From NCBI RefSeq assembly GCF_012927165.1, contig NZ_JABBGA010000018.1, positions 1 to 64,000 of the forward strand: 64,000 nt of DNA, given 5' to 3'. Under the pieces are notes generated by a model that saw nothing but the letters and a program-made list of their open reading frames with translations, was not told where the DNA came from and ran no database searches. Of the stretch, positions 13,962 to 19,454 are shown piece after piece. This stretch comes from Zoogloea dura. GTDB taxonomy: Bacteria; Pseudomonadota; Gammaproteobacteria; Burkholderiales; Rhodocyclaceae. Both the position numbers and the translations under genes were made by a program. Each line of letters starts with the position of its first letter. Position 1 is the stretch's first letter.

Positions 13962-15365
13962 TCAGGCGTGATCGGGCTCTTCGAGCCCCAGCTCCTGGAT
14001 CTTGCGGGTGATCGTATTGCGGCCGATACCCAGCAGCTGGGCCGCCTCGATACGGCGGCCGCCGGTGGCCGCCAGGGCACGACGGATCAGGATGCGTTCG
14101 AAGTCCTTGTTCAGGCGGTCGAAAACCTCCCCGGGATTCTGTGCCAGGGCGCGGTCGGCCTCCACCATCAGGGCATCGCACCAGTTGGCCGGCTGCTCGC
14201 GGGTCGGCTGGTCCTTCAGCTCGGGCGGCAGGTCGGCCACCTCGACGGTCTGCCCCGGCGCCATCACGGTCAGCCAATGGCAGAGGTTCTCGAGCTGGCG
14301 CACATTGCCCGGAAAATCCAGGCTCTGCAGGTACTTGAGGGTCGCCTCCGACAGGCGCTTGGCCTCGACGCCCAGTTCCTGTGCCGACAGGGCGATGAAG
14401 TGACGGGCCAGGGGCGGGATGTCCTCACGCCGCTCGCGTAGCGGCGGCAGACGCAGGCGGATCACATTGAGGCGGTGGAACAAGTCCTCCCGGAACAAGC
14501 CCTGACGGACCCGCTCTTCCATGTTCTGGTGGGTGGCGGCGATCACCCGCACATTGGCCTTGATCGGCTGATGGCCACCAACCCGGTAGAAGTTGTTGTC
14601 GGACAGCACACGCAGCAGGCGGGTCTGCAGCTCGGCCGGCATGTCGCCGATCTCATCGAGGAACAGGGTGCCGCCCTCGGCCTGCTCGAAACGGCCCCGG
14701 CGCATGGTCTGGGCACCGGTGAAGGCACCACGCTCATGGCCAAACAGCTCGGACTCCAGCAGGTCGCGGGGGATCGCCGCAGTGTTGATCGCGATGAAGG
14801 GCGCGTCCTTGCGCGGACTGTGGCGGTGCAGGGCGCGGGCGACCAGCTCCTTGCCTGAGCCCGACTCACCATTGATCAGCACCGTGGCATGCGACTGGGA
14901 GAGCCGGCCGATGGCCCGGAACACCTCCTGCATGGCCGGCGCCTGGCCTAGGATCTCCGGGACGGCGCTGAGCACCTCCTCGGAACCCGCCTGGTGGGCG
15001 CTCTCGTCAATGGCACGACGCACCAGCTCGACCGCCTGATCGACGTCGAAGGGCTTGGGCAGGTATTCAAAGGCGCCCCCCTGGAAGGCCGCCACCGCAC
15101 TGTCCAGATCGGAGTAGGCGGTCATGATGATGACCGGCATGTGGGGGAAGCGGGTCTTGACCTTGGACAGCAGGGTCAGGCCGGACTCTCCGGGCATGCG
15201 GATGTCGGACAGCAGCACGCGGGGCGCCTGGGCCGTACTTTCCAGCGCGGCCAGCACCTCCCCCGCCGAGCCGAAGCTCTTGTATGGAATTTCCTCCCGG
15301 GCCAGGGCCTTTTCCAGCACCCAGCGGATGGAACGGTCGTCATCAACAATCCACACTGCATTCAT
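13962..15365 (-). CDS. ntrC: Nitrogen regulation response regulator NtrC
   Basis: A 467-residue sigma-54 activator: REC domain (DDD at 8-10, phosphoacceptor D54 in SDIRMPG), AAA+ domain with Walker A GESGSGKE, the GAFTGA sigma-54-contacting loop, Walker B GGTLFLDEIGD, and a Fis-type C-terminal HTH (RRIEAAQLLGIGRNTITRKIQELG). The ATG at 15365 gives the standard N terminus; a GTG five codons earlier is possible and no strong Shine-Dalgarno is seen. It lies 81 bases downstream of ntrB on the same strand. Predicted NtrC sites before glnA are its likely targets. Confidence 0.96.
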   Translation of the reverse strand: MNAVWIVDDDRSIRWVLEKALAREEIPYKSFGSAGEVLAALESTAQAPRVLLSDIRMPGESGLTLLSKVKTRFPHMPVIIMTAYSDLDSAVAAFQGGAFEYLPKPFDVDQAVELVRRAIDESAHQAGSEEVLSAVPEILGQAPAMQEVFRAIGRLSQSHATVLINGESGSGKELVARALHRHSPRKDAPFIAINTAAIPRDLLESELFGHERGAFTGAQTMRRGRFEQAEGGTLFLDEIGDMPAELQTRLLRVLSDNNFYRVGGHQPIKANVRVIAATHQNMEERVRQGLFREDLFHRLNVIRLRLPPLRERREDIPPLARHFIALSAQELGVEAKRLSEATLKYLQSLDFPGNVRQLENLCHWLTVMAPGQTVEVADLPPELKDQPTREQPANWCDALMVEADRALAQNPGEVFDRLNKDFERILIRRALAATGGRRIEAAQLLGIGRNTITRKIQELGLEEPDHA

Positions 15366-15446
15366 GTCATTCACACGCACAAGAGAGAGACAGCAAAAAA
15401 ATGAGCACCGGCATCAATGCACCATTATCGTGCATCGACGCGCACA

Positions 15447-16520
15447 TCACGCTTCCATATCCCGCGAAATCGGCAGAAAGACCGTAAAGCAGGTTCGACC
15501 GGGCCGCGACTCGACCTCGATGGCGCCCTGATGCTGCTCGATGAAACTCTGGGCCAGGGACAAGCCCAGGCCGCTGCCGTTTTCCCGCCCCGACACCAGC
15601 GGATAGAAGATCTTGTCCCGGATGGCGTCCGGAATGCCGGGCCCGTTGTCGATCACCTGGAGCTGCAGGGCCAGCTTGAAACGCCGCTTGGCCAGGGTGA
15701 CCTGCCGGGCGGCGCGGGTCCGCAGGACGATCTCGCCATTGCCATTGAGCGCCTGGGCGGCGTTGCGGGCGATGTTGAGGATGGCCTGGATGAGCTGCTC
15801 CCGGTCACCGGTGATGTAGGGCAGGCTGGTGTCGTAGTCGCGGCGCACCCCGACCGACGGAAACTCGGCGAGGATCAGGCGCCTCACCCGCTCGAGCACG
15901 TCATGCGGGTTGAGCTGCGAGGGCTGCATCATCCGGTGCGAGGTGAGCAGCCGGTTCATCAGATCCTGCAGGCGATCCACCTCGGCGATGATCACCTGGG
16001 TGTATTCCCGGAGCTGGGGGTCGTCCAGTTCCCGCTCGAGCAGCTGGGCCGAGCCGCGGATGCCCCCGAGGGGATTCTTGATTTCGTGCGCCAGATTGCG
16101 GATCAGCTCGCGGTTCGCCTGTTGCTGGTGCGCGAGCTGTTCCTCCCGCGCCACTTTCAGGTGCGCATCCATGGGCCGGAACTCCAGCAGGAGGCGCGCA
16201 TTGCCCGAATCGATGGGCGTCACCGTGCAATCCAGGTGCAGGGCTTCCATTCCGGGGCGCACCACCGTGAGGTTATGCCCGGTATAGCTCCAGTTGTCCC
16301 GCAACACGTTGTTGAGGGCGCTGGCCAGCCCGACCGGCTCGCCCAGCAGCCTCCGCAGGGAGTAGCCGACGATCTTGCGGCTGCTCGCCGCAAACAGGTT
16401 CTCCGCCCCCGGATTCAGATAACGAACGATGAATTCATCGTCCACCAGCACCACGGCAGATGAGAGGAGCTCAAGCCCGGCAAAGGGCGAAACAGCGGAT
16501 CGGGACGGGTCGTTTTGCAT
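15447..16520 (-). CDS. ntrB: Nitrogen regulation sensor kinase/phosphatase NtrB
   Basis: A 357-residue cytosolic histidine kinase with an N-terminal PAS domain (LVDDEFIVRYLNPGAENLFA), the phosphorylated His in NLAHEIKNPLGGIRGSAQLL, an N box (NIARNAAQAL), and G boxes DNGPGIP and GSGLGLSLA. The sequence around the H box is diagnostic for NtrB/GlnL. It phosphorylates or dephosphorylates NtrC under PII control. It precedes ntrC but is separated from glnA by a DUF4124 gene and a terminator, so ntrBC likely has its own promoter. Confidence 0.96.
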   Translation of the reverse strand: MQNDPSRSAVSPFAGLELLSSAVVLVDDEFIVRYLNPGAENLFAASSRKIVGYSLRRLLGEPVGLASALNNVLRDNWSYTGHNLTVVRPGMEALHLDCTVTPIDSGNARLLLEFRPMDAHLKVAREEQLAHQQQANRELIRNLAHEIKNPLGGIRGSAQLLERELDDPQLREYTQVIIAEVDRLQDLMNRLLTSHRMMQPSQLNPHDVLERVRRLILAEFPSVGVRRDYDTSLPYITGDREQLIQAILNIARNAAQALNGNGEIVLRTRAARQVTLAKRRFKLALQLQVIDNGPGIPDAIRDKIFYPLVSGRENGSGLGLSLAQSFIEQHQGAIEVESRPGRTCFTVFLPISRDMEA

Positions 16521-16590: not shown

Positions 16591-17070
16591 CTAGCGCAGG
16601 TTGGAGATCTCCCTGCGCAGCGCCTCGATGTTGCGCTCGTGGATTTGCACCTTGTCCTTGAAGGGCTGCAGGCGGTCCAGCACCTTCTGGTAGTTGCGCT
16701 CATCGCCATAGCGGAGCGCCTCCTGGTCAACCAGCTCCTTGCGGGCCACCTCAAGGGCCCGCTGCTCGCTGGCCAGTTCATCGTCGAGAATGCGCCGGCG
16801 ATCATTGTCACGCGCCTTTTGAGTGCCCGTATCGACCCGGGGGAAGCCCGCCGACGTACCGGATGCACCGCCTTGGGGCGCAGCCGGGCGCGATGCACTG
16901 GGAACGGACGAAACGGCCTGATCCCGCGCCAGCATGCTGCACCCCTTCACGGACGACTTGCTGTTGGTATAGGTCGTGTGCCCCGCCTCATCAACGCACT
17001 TATAGATGTCGGCCCGCACAGGCAGCGCGTACAGCAGTACAGCCAGCAGAACAGGGATTCTCGAGAGCAT
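16591..17070 (-). CDS. DUF4124-domain secreted protein
   Basis: A 159-residue protein starting at ATG 17070, which gives a clean signal peptide (LLAVLLYALPVRA) ending before DIYKCVDEAGHTTYTNSK, the DUF4124 core found at the N terminus of many betaproteobacterial periplasmic proteins. After a Ser/Ala/Gly-rich linker the C-terminal ~75 residues form a charged coiled coil (RRRILDDELASEQRALEVAR...). Such proteins are frequent between glnA and ntrB in this group; their function is unknown. The protein probably sits in the periplasm. Confidence 0.85.
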   Translation of the reverse strand: MLSRIPVLLAVLLYALPVRADIYKCVDEAGHTTYTNSKSSVKGCSMLARDQAVSSVPSASRPAAPQGGASGTSAGFPRVDTGTQKARDNDRRRILDDELASEQRALEVARKELVDQEALRYGDERNYQKVLDRLQPFKDKVQIHERNIEALRREISNLR

Positions 17071-17145
17071 GGTGGGCACAGGCAGTTCCGGAAGCAGCGC
17101 TAGTTTAGGGGCCGGCCCGGGCAAACACAAACGCGGGCTGGAAAC

Positions 17146-17179
17146 AAAAAGAAAAGGGGACGAGCCTCGGCCCGTCCCC
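17146..17179 (-). terminator. Rho-independent terminator of glnA
   Basis: On the minus strand GGGGACG (17179-17173) pairs with CGTCCCC (17162-17156) and is followed by CTTTTCTTTTTG (17155-17144). It lies 48 bases after the glnA stop and would separate glnA from the ntrBC genes. Confidence 0.85.
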
Positions 17180-17226
17180 TGTAACGCATCAACCGGCCAG
17201 CAGGCTGACCGGCTCCGATCCGGAGA

Positions 17227-18636
17227 TCAGATGGCGTAGTACATCTCGAACTCGACCGGATGCACTTCAACGCGCAGACGGTTCACTTCTTCCTGCTTGA
17301 GGGCAATGAAGGAGTCGATGAAGTCGTTGCTGAAGACGCCGCCGCGGGTCAGGAACTCGCGGTCCTTGTCCAGGGCTTCCAGAGCCTGTTCGAGGCTGGA
17401 ACAGACGGTCGGGATAAGCGCATCTTCTTCCGGCGGCAGATCGTACAGGTTCTTGTCGGCGGGGTCGCCCGGGTGGATCTTGTTCTGGATGCCGTCGAGG
17501 CCGGCCATCATCAGCGCGGCGAAGCACAGGTAGGGGTTGGCACCCGGATCCGGGAAACGGGTCTCGATGCGGCGAGCCTTTTCGCTGTTCACAAACGGGA
17601 TGCGGATGGAAGCGGAACGGTTCTTGGCGGAGTAGGCCAGCTTCACCGGAGCTTCGTAATGGGGCACCAGACGCTTGTAGGAGTTGGTCAGCGGGTTGGT
17701 GATGGCGTTCAGCGCACGGGCGTGCTTGATGATGCCGCCGATGTAGTACAGGGCGGTCTCGGACAGACCGGCGTAGCCATTGCCAGCGAACAGGTTCTTG
17801 CCGTCCTTCCAGATGGACTGGTGCACGTGCATGCCGGAACCGTTGTCACCAACGATGGGCTTCGGCATGAAGGTAGCCGTCTTGCCGTACTGGTGGGCAA
17901 CGTTCTGGACGATGTACTTGGTGATCTGGGTCTGGTCGGCGCGACGCACCAGGGTGTCGAACTTGGTGCCGATTTCGTTCTGGCCGGCGGTCGCCACTTC
18001 GTGGTGGTGCACTTCAACGGGCACGCCGCAGGCTTCGAGGGCCAGACACATGGCGGCACGCATGTCGTTGAAGGAGTCGACCGGGGGAACCGGGAAGTAG
18101 CCACCCTTCACAGCGGGGCGGTAGCCGGTGTTGCCACCTTCGAACTTCTGGTCGGACGACCAGGCAGCTTCTTCGGAGAAGATCTTGTGGTAGGCGCCGG
18201 ACATGCCGACCTTCCACTCGACGGAGTCGAAGATGAAGAATTCGGGTTCCGGACCAAAGTAGGCGGTGTCGCCGATGCCGGAGGACTTGAGGTAAGCCTC
18301 GGCGCGGTTGGCGATGGAGCGCGGGTCGCGGTCGTAGCCCTTGCCGTCGGCCGGATCGATCACGTCACAGCTCAGGACCAGAGTGGTTTCGTCGAAGAAC
18401 GGATCGATGTAGGCGGTGCTGGGGTCCGGCATCAGCAGCATGTCGGAAGCCTGGATACCCTTCCAGCCGGCGATCGAGGAGCCGTCGAATGCATGACCGC
18501 TTTCGAACTTGTCTTCGTCGAAAGCGCTGACCGGCACGCCAACGTGCTGTTCCTTGCCCTTGGTATCGGTGAAACGAAAATCAACAAATTTGACTTCGTT
18601 TTCCTGGACGATCTTCATGACGTCTTGCGGGGTCAT
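17227..18636 (-). CDS. glnA: Glutamine synthetase type I
   Basis: A 469-residue GSI-beta enzyme converting glutamate and ammonia to glutamine with ATP. The start ATG 18636 has AGGAGTGAG 5 bases upstream. Motifs include FDGSSIAGW, the ATP-binding [17 protein letters not shown] and the adenylylation site Tyr398 in NLYDLPPEE, so regulation by GlnE is expected. It is a stand-alone transcript: terminator at 17146-17179, sigma-54 promoter at ~18716-18732 with two NtrC boxes farther upstream. NtrBC encoded just downstream would drive it under nitrogen limitation. Confidence 0.98.
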
Positions 18637-18715
18637 ATAACTCACTCCTAACGGGTTGAAGCTGCTGCGCAGTGGAAAAAGATATCGGTTACTACAATGA
18701 CTCAGCCGAGCAAGC

Positions 18716-18732
18716 AAGCATCAAACATGCCA
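18716..18732 (-). promoter_or_regulatory. Predicted sigma-54 promoter of glnA
   Basis: On the minus strand TGGCATGTTTGATGCTT matches the -24/-12 consensus TGGCACG-N4-TTGCW, with the invariant GG and GC exactly 10 bases apart. The start site would fall near 18705, giving a leader of about 70 bases before the glnA ATG. Confidence 0.8.
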
Positions 18733-18794
18733 GCCCGAAAAACAAAACACCTCATTGTGCCACAAGGGCAATAAGGCGCGCCCCGAAAAAATAT

Positions 18795-18811
18795 TGCACC
18801 GATATAGTGCT
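18795..18811. promoter_or_regulatory. Predicted NtrC binding site 1
   Basis: TGCACC-GATAT-AGTGCT resembles the NtrC palindrome TGCACY-N5-GGTGCA. It is centred near position -98 relative to the predicted glnA start. An additional short palindrome GTGCTCAGCAC overlaps its right half (18807-18817). Confidence 0.75.
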
Positions 18812-18825
18812 CAGCACTCACAAAT

Positions 18826-18842
18826 CGCACCGCATTGGTGCA
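18826..18842. promoter_or_regulatory. Predicted NtrC binding site 2
   Basis: CGCACC-GCATT-GGTGCA is an almost perfect NtrC palindrome, centred near -129 and 31 bp (three helical turns) from site 1. The remainder of the 18637-19001 gap is the glnA leader and about 160 bases before the rhodanese gene with no other recognised signal. Confidence 0.82.
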
Positions 18843-19001: not shown

Positions 19002-19454
19002 ATGGGAAAACTCAGTGACACCCTCAACCTCGCCCAGGAACGCGCCCGTGGGCTGAACCTCCCCTATGCGGGTTCCCTCACGCCCCGCGAAGCCTCGGAG
19101 ATCCTGGCACTAGCCCCCGGTGCCAAGCTGGTGGACGTGCGCACCCGGGCCGAATGGGACTGGGTCGGCCGGATTCCCGGCGCGATCGAGATCGAGTGGA
19201 TGCTCTACCCGGGCAACGAACCCAACCCCCATTTTCTCGCCCAATTCAAGCGTCAGGTGGATCCGGAAGCCCTGGTCATGTTCCTGTGTCGCAGCGGAGC
19301 GCGCTCCAATGCTGCAGCGACACTGGCCGCCAACTCGGGCTACACCAACGCCTACAACATCCTCGAAGGCTTCGAGGGCGACAAGGATGCCAGCGGCCAC
19401 CGTAACAAGGTCGGGGGCTGGCGCCATGCCGGCCTGCCGTGGAACCAGGGCTGA
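19002..19454 (+). CDS. Rhodanese-like sulfurtransferase
   Basis: A 150-residue single rhodanese domain starting at ATG 19002. LVDVRTRAEWDWVGRIPGA is the N-terminal signature; the active-site loop is FLCRSGARSN with the catalytic Cys that carries persulfide; the C-terminal FEGDKD...VGGWRHAGLPW segment is typical of the PspE/GlpE-like group seen in betaproteobacteria. It lies 19 bases before nadA and is likely co-transcribed with it. NadA has an oxygen-sensitive Fe-S cluster, so a role in sulfur supply is possible but not shown. Confidence 0.9.
   Translation: MGKLSDTLNLAQERARGLNLPYAGSLTPREASEILALAPGAKLVDVRTRAEWDWVGRIPGAIEIEWMLYPGNEPNPHFLAQFKRQVDPEALVMFLCRSGARSNAAATLAANSGYTNAYNILEGFEGDKDASGHRNKVGGWRHAGLPWNQG

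Follow-up and report, generated by a model that had tools for sequence, protein, structure and literature searches.

Does the glnA gene of Zoogloea dura carry the nitrogen-regulated enhancer known from enteric bacteria, and what else is written into its control region? The window considered here is a stretch of 64,000 nucleotides from contig NZ_JABBGA010000018.1, and a first-pass annotation made from its letters had proposed that the region upstream of glnA mirrors the enteric glnAp2 layout, with a sigma-54 promoter, a phased pair of NtrC palindromes and linked ntrBC genes, and that the same enhancer mechanism operates. We followed up this proposal in the window, in the rest of the genome and in the corresponding regions of relatives. 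The features are collected in Table 1; upstream positions are counted from the predicted start of the sigma-54 promoter, p2, except where the second candidate promoter, p1, is named.

Table 1. Features of the glnA-ntrB-ntrC region of Z. dura, in window coordinates
Feature	Sequence	Positions	Strand	Description
ntrC (glnG), enhancer-binding protein		13962..15380	minus	TIGR01818, 705.5 bits (cut-off 558.6)
Third NtrC palindrome, candidate feedback operator	TGCACGATAATGGTGCA	15418..15434	minus	11/12; in the ntrB-ntrC gap
ntrB (glnL), NtrC kinase		15447..16520	minus	PRK11073, 358 bits (cut-off 240)
DUF4124 protein gene, between glnA and ntrB		16591..17130	minus	Pfam PF13511, E 4.2e-10
Predicted intrinsic terminator after glnA		17155..17180	minus	11-bp stem, T-rich tail
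Second conserved hairpin, glnA 3' UTR		17193..17213	minus	Conserved in genus sequences
glnA, type I glutamine synthetase		17227..18636	minus	TIGR00653, 678 bits (cut-off 429); Pfam Gln-synt_C and Gln-synt_N
Sigma-54 -24/-12 promoter p2	TGGCATGTTTGATGCT	18717..18732	minus	GG-N10-GC; predicted start 18706
-53 block	CCTTGTGGCACAATGA	18752..18767	minus	-61 to -46; candidate extended -10 of p1, predicted start ~18747
T-tract directly 3' of the proximal NtrC site		18786..18791	minus	-44 to -39 of the predicted p1 start
Proximal NtrC palindrome	AGCACTATATCGGTGCA	18795..18811	minus	Centre -97; 11/12 to TGCACYNNNNNRGTGCA
Distal NtrC palindrome	TGCACCAATGCGGTGCG	18826..18842	minus	Centre -128; 11/12 to TGCACYNNNNNRGTGCA

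The predicted glnA promoter and enhancer and their regulators

The glnA reading frame begins at the ATG at 18636 on the minus strand, immediately 5' of which lies the ribosome-binding region AGGAGTGAGTTAT. Its product scores 825.9 bits against the narrower profile PRK09469, slightly below the cut-off of 845. A rhodanese-domain gene (window 19002-19454, plus strand) diverges from glnA, and the 365-bp intergenic region is common to both. Six GG-N10-GC arrangements occur in the 370 bases 5' of the glnA ATG, and p2 alone scores above 8 of 11; it agrees with the consensus TGGCAYRNNNNNTGCW at all 11 informative positions. The sigma-54 -24/-12 element described earlier is present as TGGCATGTTTGATGCT, and the start predicted from its C(-12) at 18718, namely 18706, falls within the interval 18700-18710 that had been given for it.

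The two NtrC palindromes upstream of p2 are 31 bp apart, as the first-pass annotation had it, and its centres of -129 and -98 differ from ours only by a 1-bp convention of counting. Sigma-54 elements were scored against the consensus TGGCAYRNNNNNTGCW and NtrC sites against TGCACYNNNNNRGTGCA. As a positive control, the same scanner was run on E. coli K-12 glnA and returned NtrC sites at -140 and -108, in agreement with the enteric positions cited earlier. A further palindrome, AGTGCTGAGCACT, which overlaps the proximal site, was rejected because it is absent from the other 21 genus sequences.

The regulators that such a promoter calls for are encoded nearby and elsewhere in the genome. Aligned with its E. 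coli counterpart, NtrC shows 64% identity and retains D54, GRNTxTRK and the GAFTGA loop; it is built of a receiver, a sigma-54 activation domain and a Fis-type HTH, and its start codon is either the GTG at 15380 or the ATG at 15365. The sigma-54 activation domain family has 29 matches in the genome, of which three are weak, and there are one RpoN DNA-binding domain and five PII domains. The combination of an NtrC palindrome with a sigma-54 element 50-80 bp downstream is found at two places in the genome, against none in the control; one is glnA and the other lies in front of a gene for a NirB-like reductase.

This second place (L189:1528-1625, which is C3:127827-127924 of the same genome) combines an NtrC palindrome with a sigma-54 element before a NirB-like nitrite reductase gene, which has Pyr_redox_2 and Rubredoxin_C domains and is truncated by the end of the fetched stretch. 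Two further loci came to light. At L177:1904-2034, a 12/12 NtrC palindrome lies about 127 bp upstream of the start predicted for an ammonium transporter gene (Pfam Ammonium_transp), the start being predicted from a sigma-54-like element whose -12 region is overlapped by another NtrC-like palindrome. At L184:1433-1592, a sigma-54-like element and two NtrC-like palindromes stand 5' of an amidase gene, which on these motifs is likely to be another NtrC target.

Conservation and spacing among relatives

GlnA is present in 97 of the 100 genomes searched, the genome of Z. dura included. The genus set comprised 23 genomes, and since one yielded no GlnA, 22 were used for the glnA promoter. For the wider survey 150 upstream regions were fetched, of which 146 were distinct, four having been removed as duplicates or as too short; a motif search for glnA starts located all 22 genus loci and missed 61 of the 150, and fixed coordinates served for the remainder. 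Among the records are some labelled Klebsiella pneumoniae, Akkermansia muciniphila and Rhodospirillales (L041, L109, L102), whose glnA and ntrC are close to betaproteobacterial ones; from these genes they look like mislabelled metagenome bins.

Within the genus the layout is fixed. In all 22 genomes with glnA, p2 scores 11/11, the distal NtrC site lies at -127 to -129 and the proximal one at -97 to -99, each site scoring at least 9/12. Across the whole set, genus included, the sigma-54 element is found in 133 of the 146 distinct regions, and an NtrC pair with a summed score of at least 20 accompanies it in 97 (21/22 genus, 25/34 family, 7/13 order and 44/77 named loci), leaving 36 of the 133 with no pair that reaches this score. 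The two sites of a pair are 30 or 31 bp apart in 57 of the 97. The distance from the inner site to the promoter ranges from 84 to 216 bp across relatives and has no clear 10.5-bp period; the Rayleigh value of 0.351 at 10.5 bp is exceeded by that at 12 bp (0.555), with relatedness uncontrolled, and phasing between enhancer and promoter was dropped as a candidate feature. The helical phasing claimed earlier fits the spacing between the sites; the distance from enhancer to promoter gives it no clear support.

Might the glnA palindromes be chance matches, with glnA outside NtrC control? Single NtrC-like palindromes are indeed frequent: the 15-mer with one mismatch has 1249 forward and 1246 reverse matches in the genome, compared with 360 and 350 for the same motif read backwards. 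Pairs behave differently. GCAC-N7-GTGC pairs 10-40 bp apart occur at four places in the 5.83-Mb genome and nowhere for the backward-read control; at the other three places the longest frame without a stop is 533, 535 and 771 aa, and at the glnA place 264 aa. When the bases 5' of -60 were shuffled, 20 times over, none of the 133 loci had a comparable pair, against the 97 observed. Given a pair conserved in both presence and position throughout the 22 genus genomes with glnA, and absent from the shuffles, we regard chance as an extremely improbable explanation.

A conserved block between enhancer and promoter

When the 22 genus sequences are aligned at p2, the most conserved stretch is a block around -53. 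Its mean conservation is 1.76 bits (-61 to -47); the sigma-54 element, spacer included, has 1.61, and the NtrC sites reach only 0.85 and 0.74 bits in this p2-anchored alignment because they shift by one or two bases among genomes. The core of the block (at least 10/12) is found in 22/22 genus, 28/34 family, 7/13 order and 24/77 named loci, although some of these matches are weak and two, L143 and L071, are probably false. Its variants can be written T[GA]TGGCA[CAGT]AAT.

The block also tends to keep its distance from the enhancer. It lies 40-46 bp from an NtrC site in 22/22 genus loci and in 40 of the 59 block-bearing loci outside the genus. Of these 59, 32 keep the distances to both the NtrC site and p2, six that to the NtrC site only, with p2 displaced, and two that to the NtrC site with no p2 called; 11 keep the p2 distance only and eight neither. 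The full count did not bear out a description of the block as locked to the NtrC sites, which we dropped; with the p2 distance alone kept in 11 loci, the coupling of the block to the NtrC sites is suggestive.

What might the block be? Promoters of the extended -10 type follow the pattern TRTGn-hexamer, with TG one base before the hexamer, A at -11 and T at -7, and the window sequence TTGTGGCACAAT has each of these features. For a view from outside the genus we took 43 loci, picked by similarity (10/15), in which the block lies 36-49 bp from an NtrC site. The A expected at -11 and the T expected at -7 are present in all 43 of these similarity-selected loci; the spacer base that separates TG from the hexamer is G in 40, 42 have G or A at position -16, and position -10 may be C, A, G or T. 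Upstream, the T-tract beside the proximal NtrC site falls at the position of an UP element of p1, and in the 22 genus genomes the A+T fraction is 0.95 between -45 and -41, counted from the p1 start predicted here. Loci without a called p2 are informative as well. Among the 10 inspected of 13 such loci, T[GA]TGGCAAAAT precedes glnA in four (L050, L135, L043, L038), the full block is present together with NtrC sites in L039 and L044, and four are without the block. L039, a glnA locus of Candidatus Accumulibacter, has an apparent sigma-54 element with 11 rather than 10 bases between GG and GC.

Other properties fit a promoter less well. A -35 hexamer is not enriched (mean best match 2.60/6, against 2.77 in shuffled sequence, over 81 loci), although extended -10 promoters do not require one; the hexamer of p1 has C at -12, where T is expected; and a simple sigma-70 scan called no promoter. 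The exact motif TRTGGCANAAT occurs only three times in the 5.83-Mb genome, so that the conservation of its GGC exceeds the needs of an extended -10 element. Taken together, these properties allow that the block is an operator for another protein, for example a second modulator of the NtrC loop, that recognises the near-palindrome TTGTG-G-CACAA. The genus consensus does contain an 11-bp near-perfect dyad, the motif is rare, and in 1.05 Mb of loci it has 27 matches, 22 of which are 5' of glnA, although the loci were selected for their glnA. Against an operator, changes at mirrored positions go uncompensated, the G/C pair being complementary in 28 of the 43 non-genus loci, and the T that follows the dyad is invariant (43/43) where its mirror base is C in only 27/43. 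The two invariant bases, A and T, coincide with those that a sigma-70 hexamer should have at -11 and -7, although adjacent bases vary hardly more (41-42 of 43), and the four loci named above without a called p2 retain the more -10-like form. We consider an operator unlikely on balance. The TGGCAC in the block also equals the -24 consensus, and a degenerate second sigma-54 -24 element might keep polymerase near the enhancer; this we judge highly improbable, given that the window has no GC at the -12 distance, that AAT is conserved instead and that the relative L036 alters the GG. Our preferred reading, held with moderate confidence, is that the -53 block is an extended -10 sigma-70 promoter, p1, the equivalent of glnAp1 placed downstream of the NtrC sites.

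A palindrome between ntrB and ntrC

A third NtrC palindrome lies in the gap between ntrB and ntrC, where in the window 61 bp separate it from the ntrC ATG. The gap could be compared in 21 genus genomes (the 23 less one whose contig ends there and one without glnA), and a palindrome of at least 10/12 is found in 19 of them, reaching at least 11 in 15; it is missing in two. Over 1000 shuffles of the ntrB-ntrC gaps, the palindrome appeared on average in 0.27 genomes and at most in 3. The 19 sites carry 1.65 bits in the arms, 0.74 in the core and 0.38 and 0.46 in the flanks, which, going by information content, is a binding-site footprint. An NtrC-like match near 16872, in the DUF4124 gene, recurs in several relatives and was set aside as coding sequence.

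Outside the genus the palindrome is rarer and differently placed. The family survey took 35 stretches and found NtrC in 31, and seven of these, from seven other genera, have a palindrome whose centre is 12-17 bases 5' of the ntrC ATG. Two further family genomes have one inside the end of ntrB. None of the four order genomes with NtrC has a gap palindrome, and among the named loci 3/69 have one within 130 bases. Upstream of the ntrC ATG the candidate operator was thus seen at two distances, about 60-80 bp in the genus and 12-17 bp in the seven other genera.

These two positions bear on what the site may do. The 61 bp in the window would be a workable distance for an upstream activator of a separate ntrC promoter, and 7/21 genus genomes have a sigma-54-like match (10/11) within ntrB, some 250 bp 5' of the gap palindrome. 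The window itself, however, has no sigma-54 element scoring at least 10 near the site, and a palindrome 12-17 bases before the ntrC ATG is too near for upstream activation of an ntrC promoter. An activating role, as opposed to a repressing operator or roadblock, therefore seems to us rather improbable. The simplest reading of the site is an autogenous operator or roadblock, and we lean towards a feedback operator through which NtrC limits its own synthesis. Passages of one study describe corresponding NtrC feedback in E. coli at glnAp1 and glnLp (PMC3870243).

Transcription units

The stem of the predicted intrinsic terminator after glnA is retained, with compensating changes, among 21 genus genomes, and given this terminator glnA is probably transcribed mostly alone. 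The first-pass annotation had called the ntrBC genes linked to glnA; ntrB and ntrC are indeed encoded nearby, but the predicted terminator and the DUF4124 gene separate them from it. In the two hairpins of the 3' UTR (window 17213-17155, minus strand), 10 of the 22 predicted pairs have both partners altered in one or more of the 21 genus sequences, and no Rfam family reaches its gathering score within the window. By annotation, the E. coli sRNA GlnZ is made from the same place, and an sRNA at the glnA 3' UTR is conceivable here too.

Discussion

The claim that glnA is governed by the NtrC/sigma-54 enhancer mechanism is supported at the level of DNA and protein sequence by sites fixed in 22/22 genus genomes, by the encoded regulators, with NtrC at 64% identity, and by a combined pattern that occurs twice in the genome and never in the control. 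The mechanism itself we infer from E. coli, with the parts for it identified here in sequence. Under nitrogen limitation, phosphorylated NtrC would bind the palindromes at -128 and -97 and oligomerise, and the oligomer, by DNA looping and with ATP, would open sigma-54 polymerase at p2, for a transcript starting at about 18706. We hold it very probable that p2 is activated in this way.

Under nitrogen excess, basal transcription of glnA would come from the candidate sigma-70 promoter p1, formed by TTGTGGCACAAT and the T-tract upstream of it, with a start at about 18747. A polymerase bound there would reach towards the proximal NtrC site and the -24 box of p2, so that use of p1 and p2 would probably alternate. 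NtrC bound between ntrB and ntrC would probably limit its own synthesis.

These elements could form a wider scheme, which we put forward tentatively and regard as somewhat doubtful. In the Rhodocyclaceae, and in some related betaproteobacteria, the same NtrC sites may have two tasks, serving p2 through sigma-54 and also acting on the sigma-70 promoter p1 from about 44 bp upstream of its extended -10 element, where NtrC would touch or block the alpha subunits of the polymerase and not cover the core promoter as in E. coli; the ntrB-ntrC operator would in addition set the ratio of NtrC to NtrB, as a point of autoregulation within the operon. If the -53 block and the gap operator are what they appear to be, the wiring of one regulator to its own gene and to a housekeeping promoter can differ. 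That NtrC controls glnA in betaproteobacteria is already established, and the enhancer reading given here is well supported and ordinary; the added elements are modest, testable variants. The classic glnA enhancer geometry, retained in this betaproteobacterial genus, also provides a calibrated site model for its NtrC regulon.

Comparison with known systems

The enteric system is a close model for the enhancer. In E. coli glnALG there is likewise a pair of strong NtrC palindromes, spaced by about three helical turns, some 100-140 bp upstream of a sigma-54 promoter, and NtrB and NtrC of the two species are homologous. The proximal site of Z. dura is identical to the E. coli -108 site at 16 of 17 positions, and the Z. 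dura sites lie 11-12 bp nearer the promoter. To this extent the locus does mirror the enteric layout, if incompletely. The p1 of E. coli, glnAp1, lies under the NtrC sites, whereas the candidate p1 here is downstream of them. A DUF4124 gene and a predicted terminator stand between glnA and ntrB, unlike in glnALG, and the candidate feedback site is between ntrB and ntrC where that of E. coli is at glnLp. E. coli glnA also has two governor NtrC sites between enhancer and promoter, as passages of one paper describe (PMC3870243). Such low-affinity sites belong to E. coli and do not define the glnAp2 type of promoter; in the window no governor-type site scoring at least 8/12 was found between -97 and p2.

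Within the Proteobacteria, the passages available from a comparative study place glnA, amtB, glnBK and ntrB/ntrC in the core NtrC regulon, and these passages describe neither a -53 block nor an ntrB-ntrC gap operator (PMC5343134). Neither element is named among the titles and abstract openings listed in searches of the open-access literature. In the betaproteobacterium Burkholderia cenocepacia, an excerpted report gives a decrease of glnA by 4.8 log2 in an ntrC mutant (PMC5491218). In Herbaspirillum seropedicae, according to the part of another report consulted, glnAntrBntrC is activated by NtrC (PMC5648810), and there glnA belongs to a glnAntrBC operon, as opposed to the glnA of Z. dura, which is probably transcribed mostly alone. 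Several named Oxalobacteraceae loci (e.g. L054, L056 and L070) have their NtrC sites near -140 and -170 and are without the TTGTGGCACAAT block. The glnAntrBC genes of H. seropedicae are reported (Schwab 2007) to have two oppositely regulated promoters, so that glnA there would be served by two promoters, as we propose for glnA of Z. dura.
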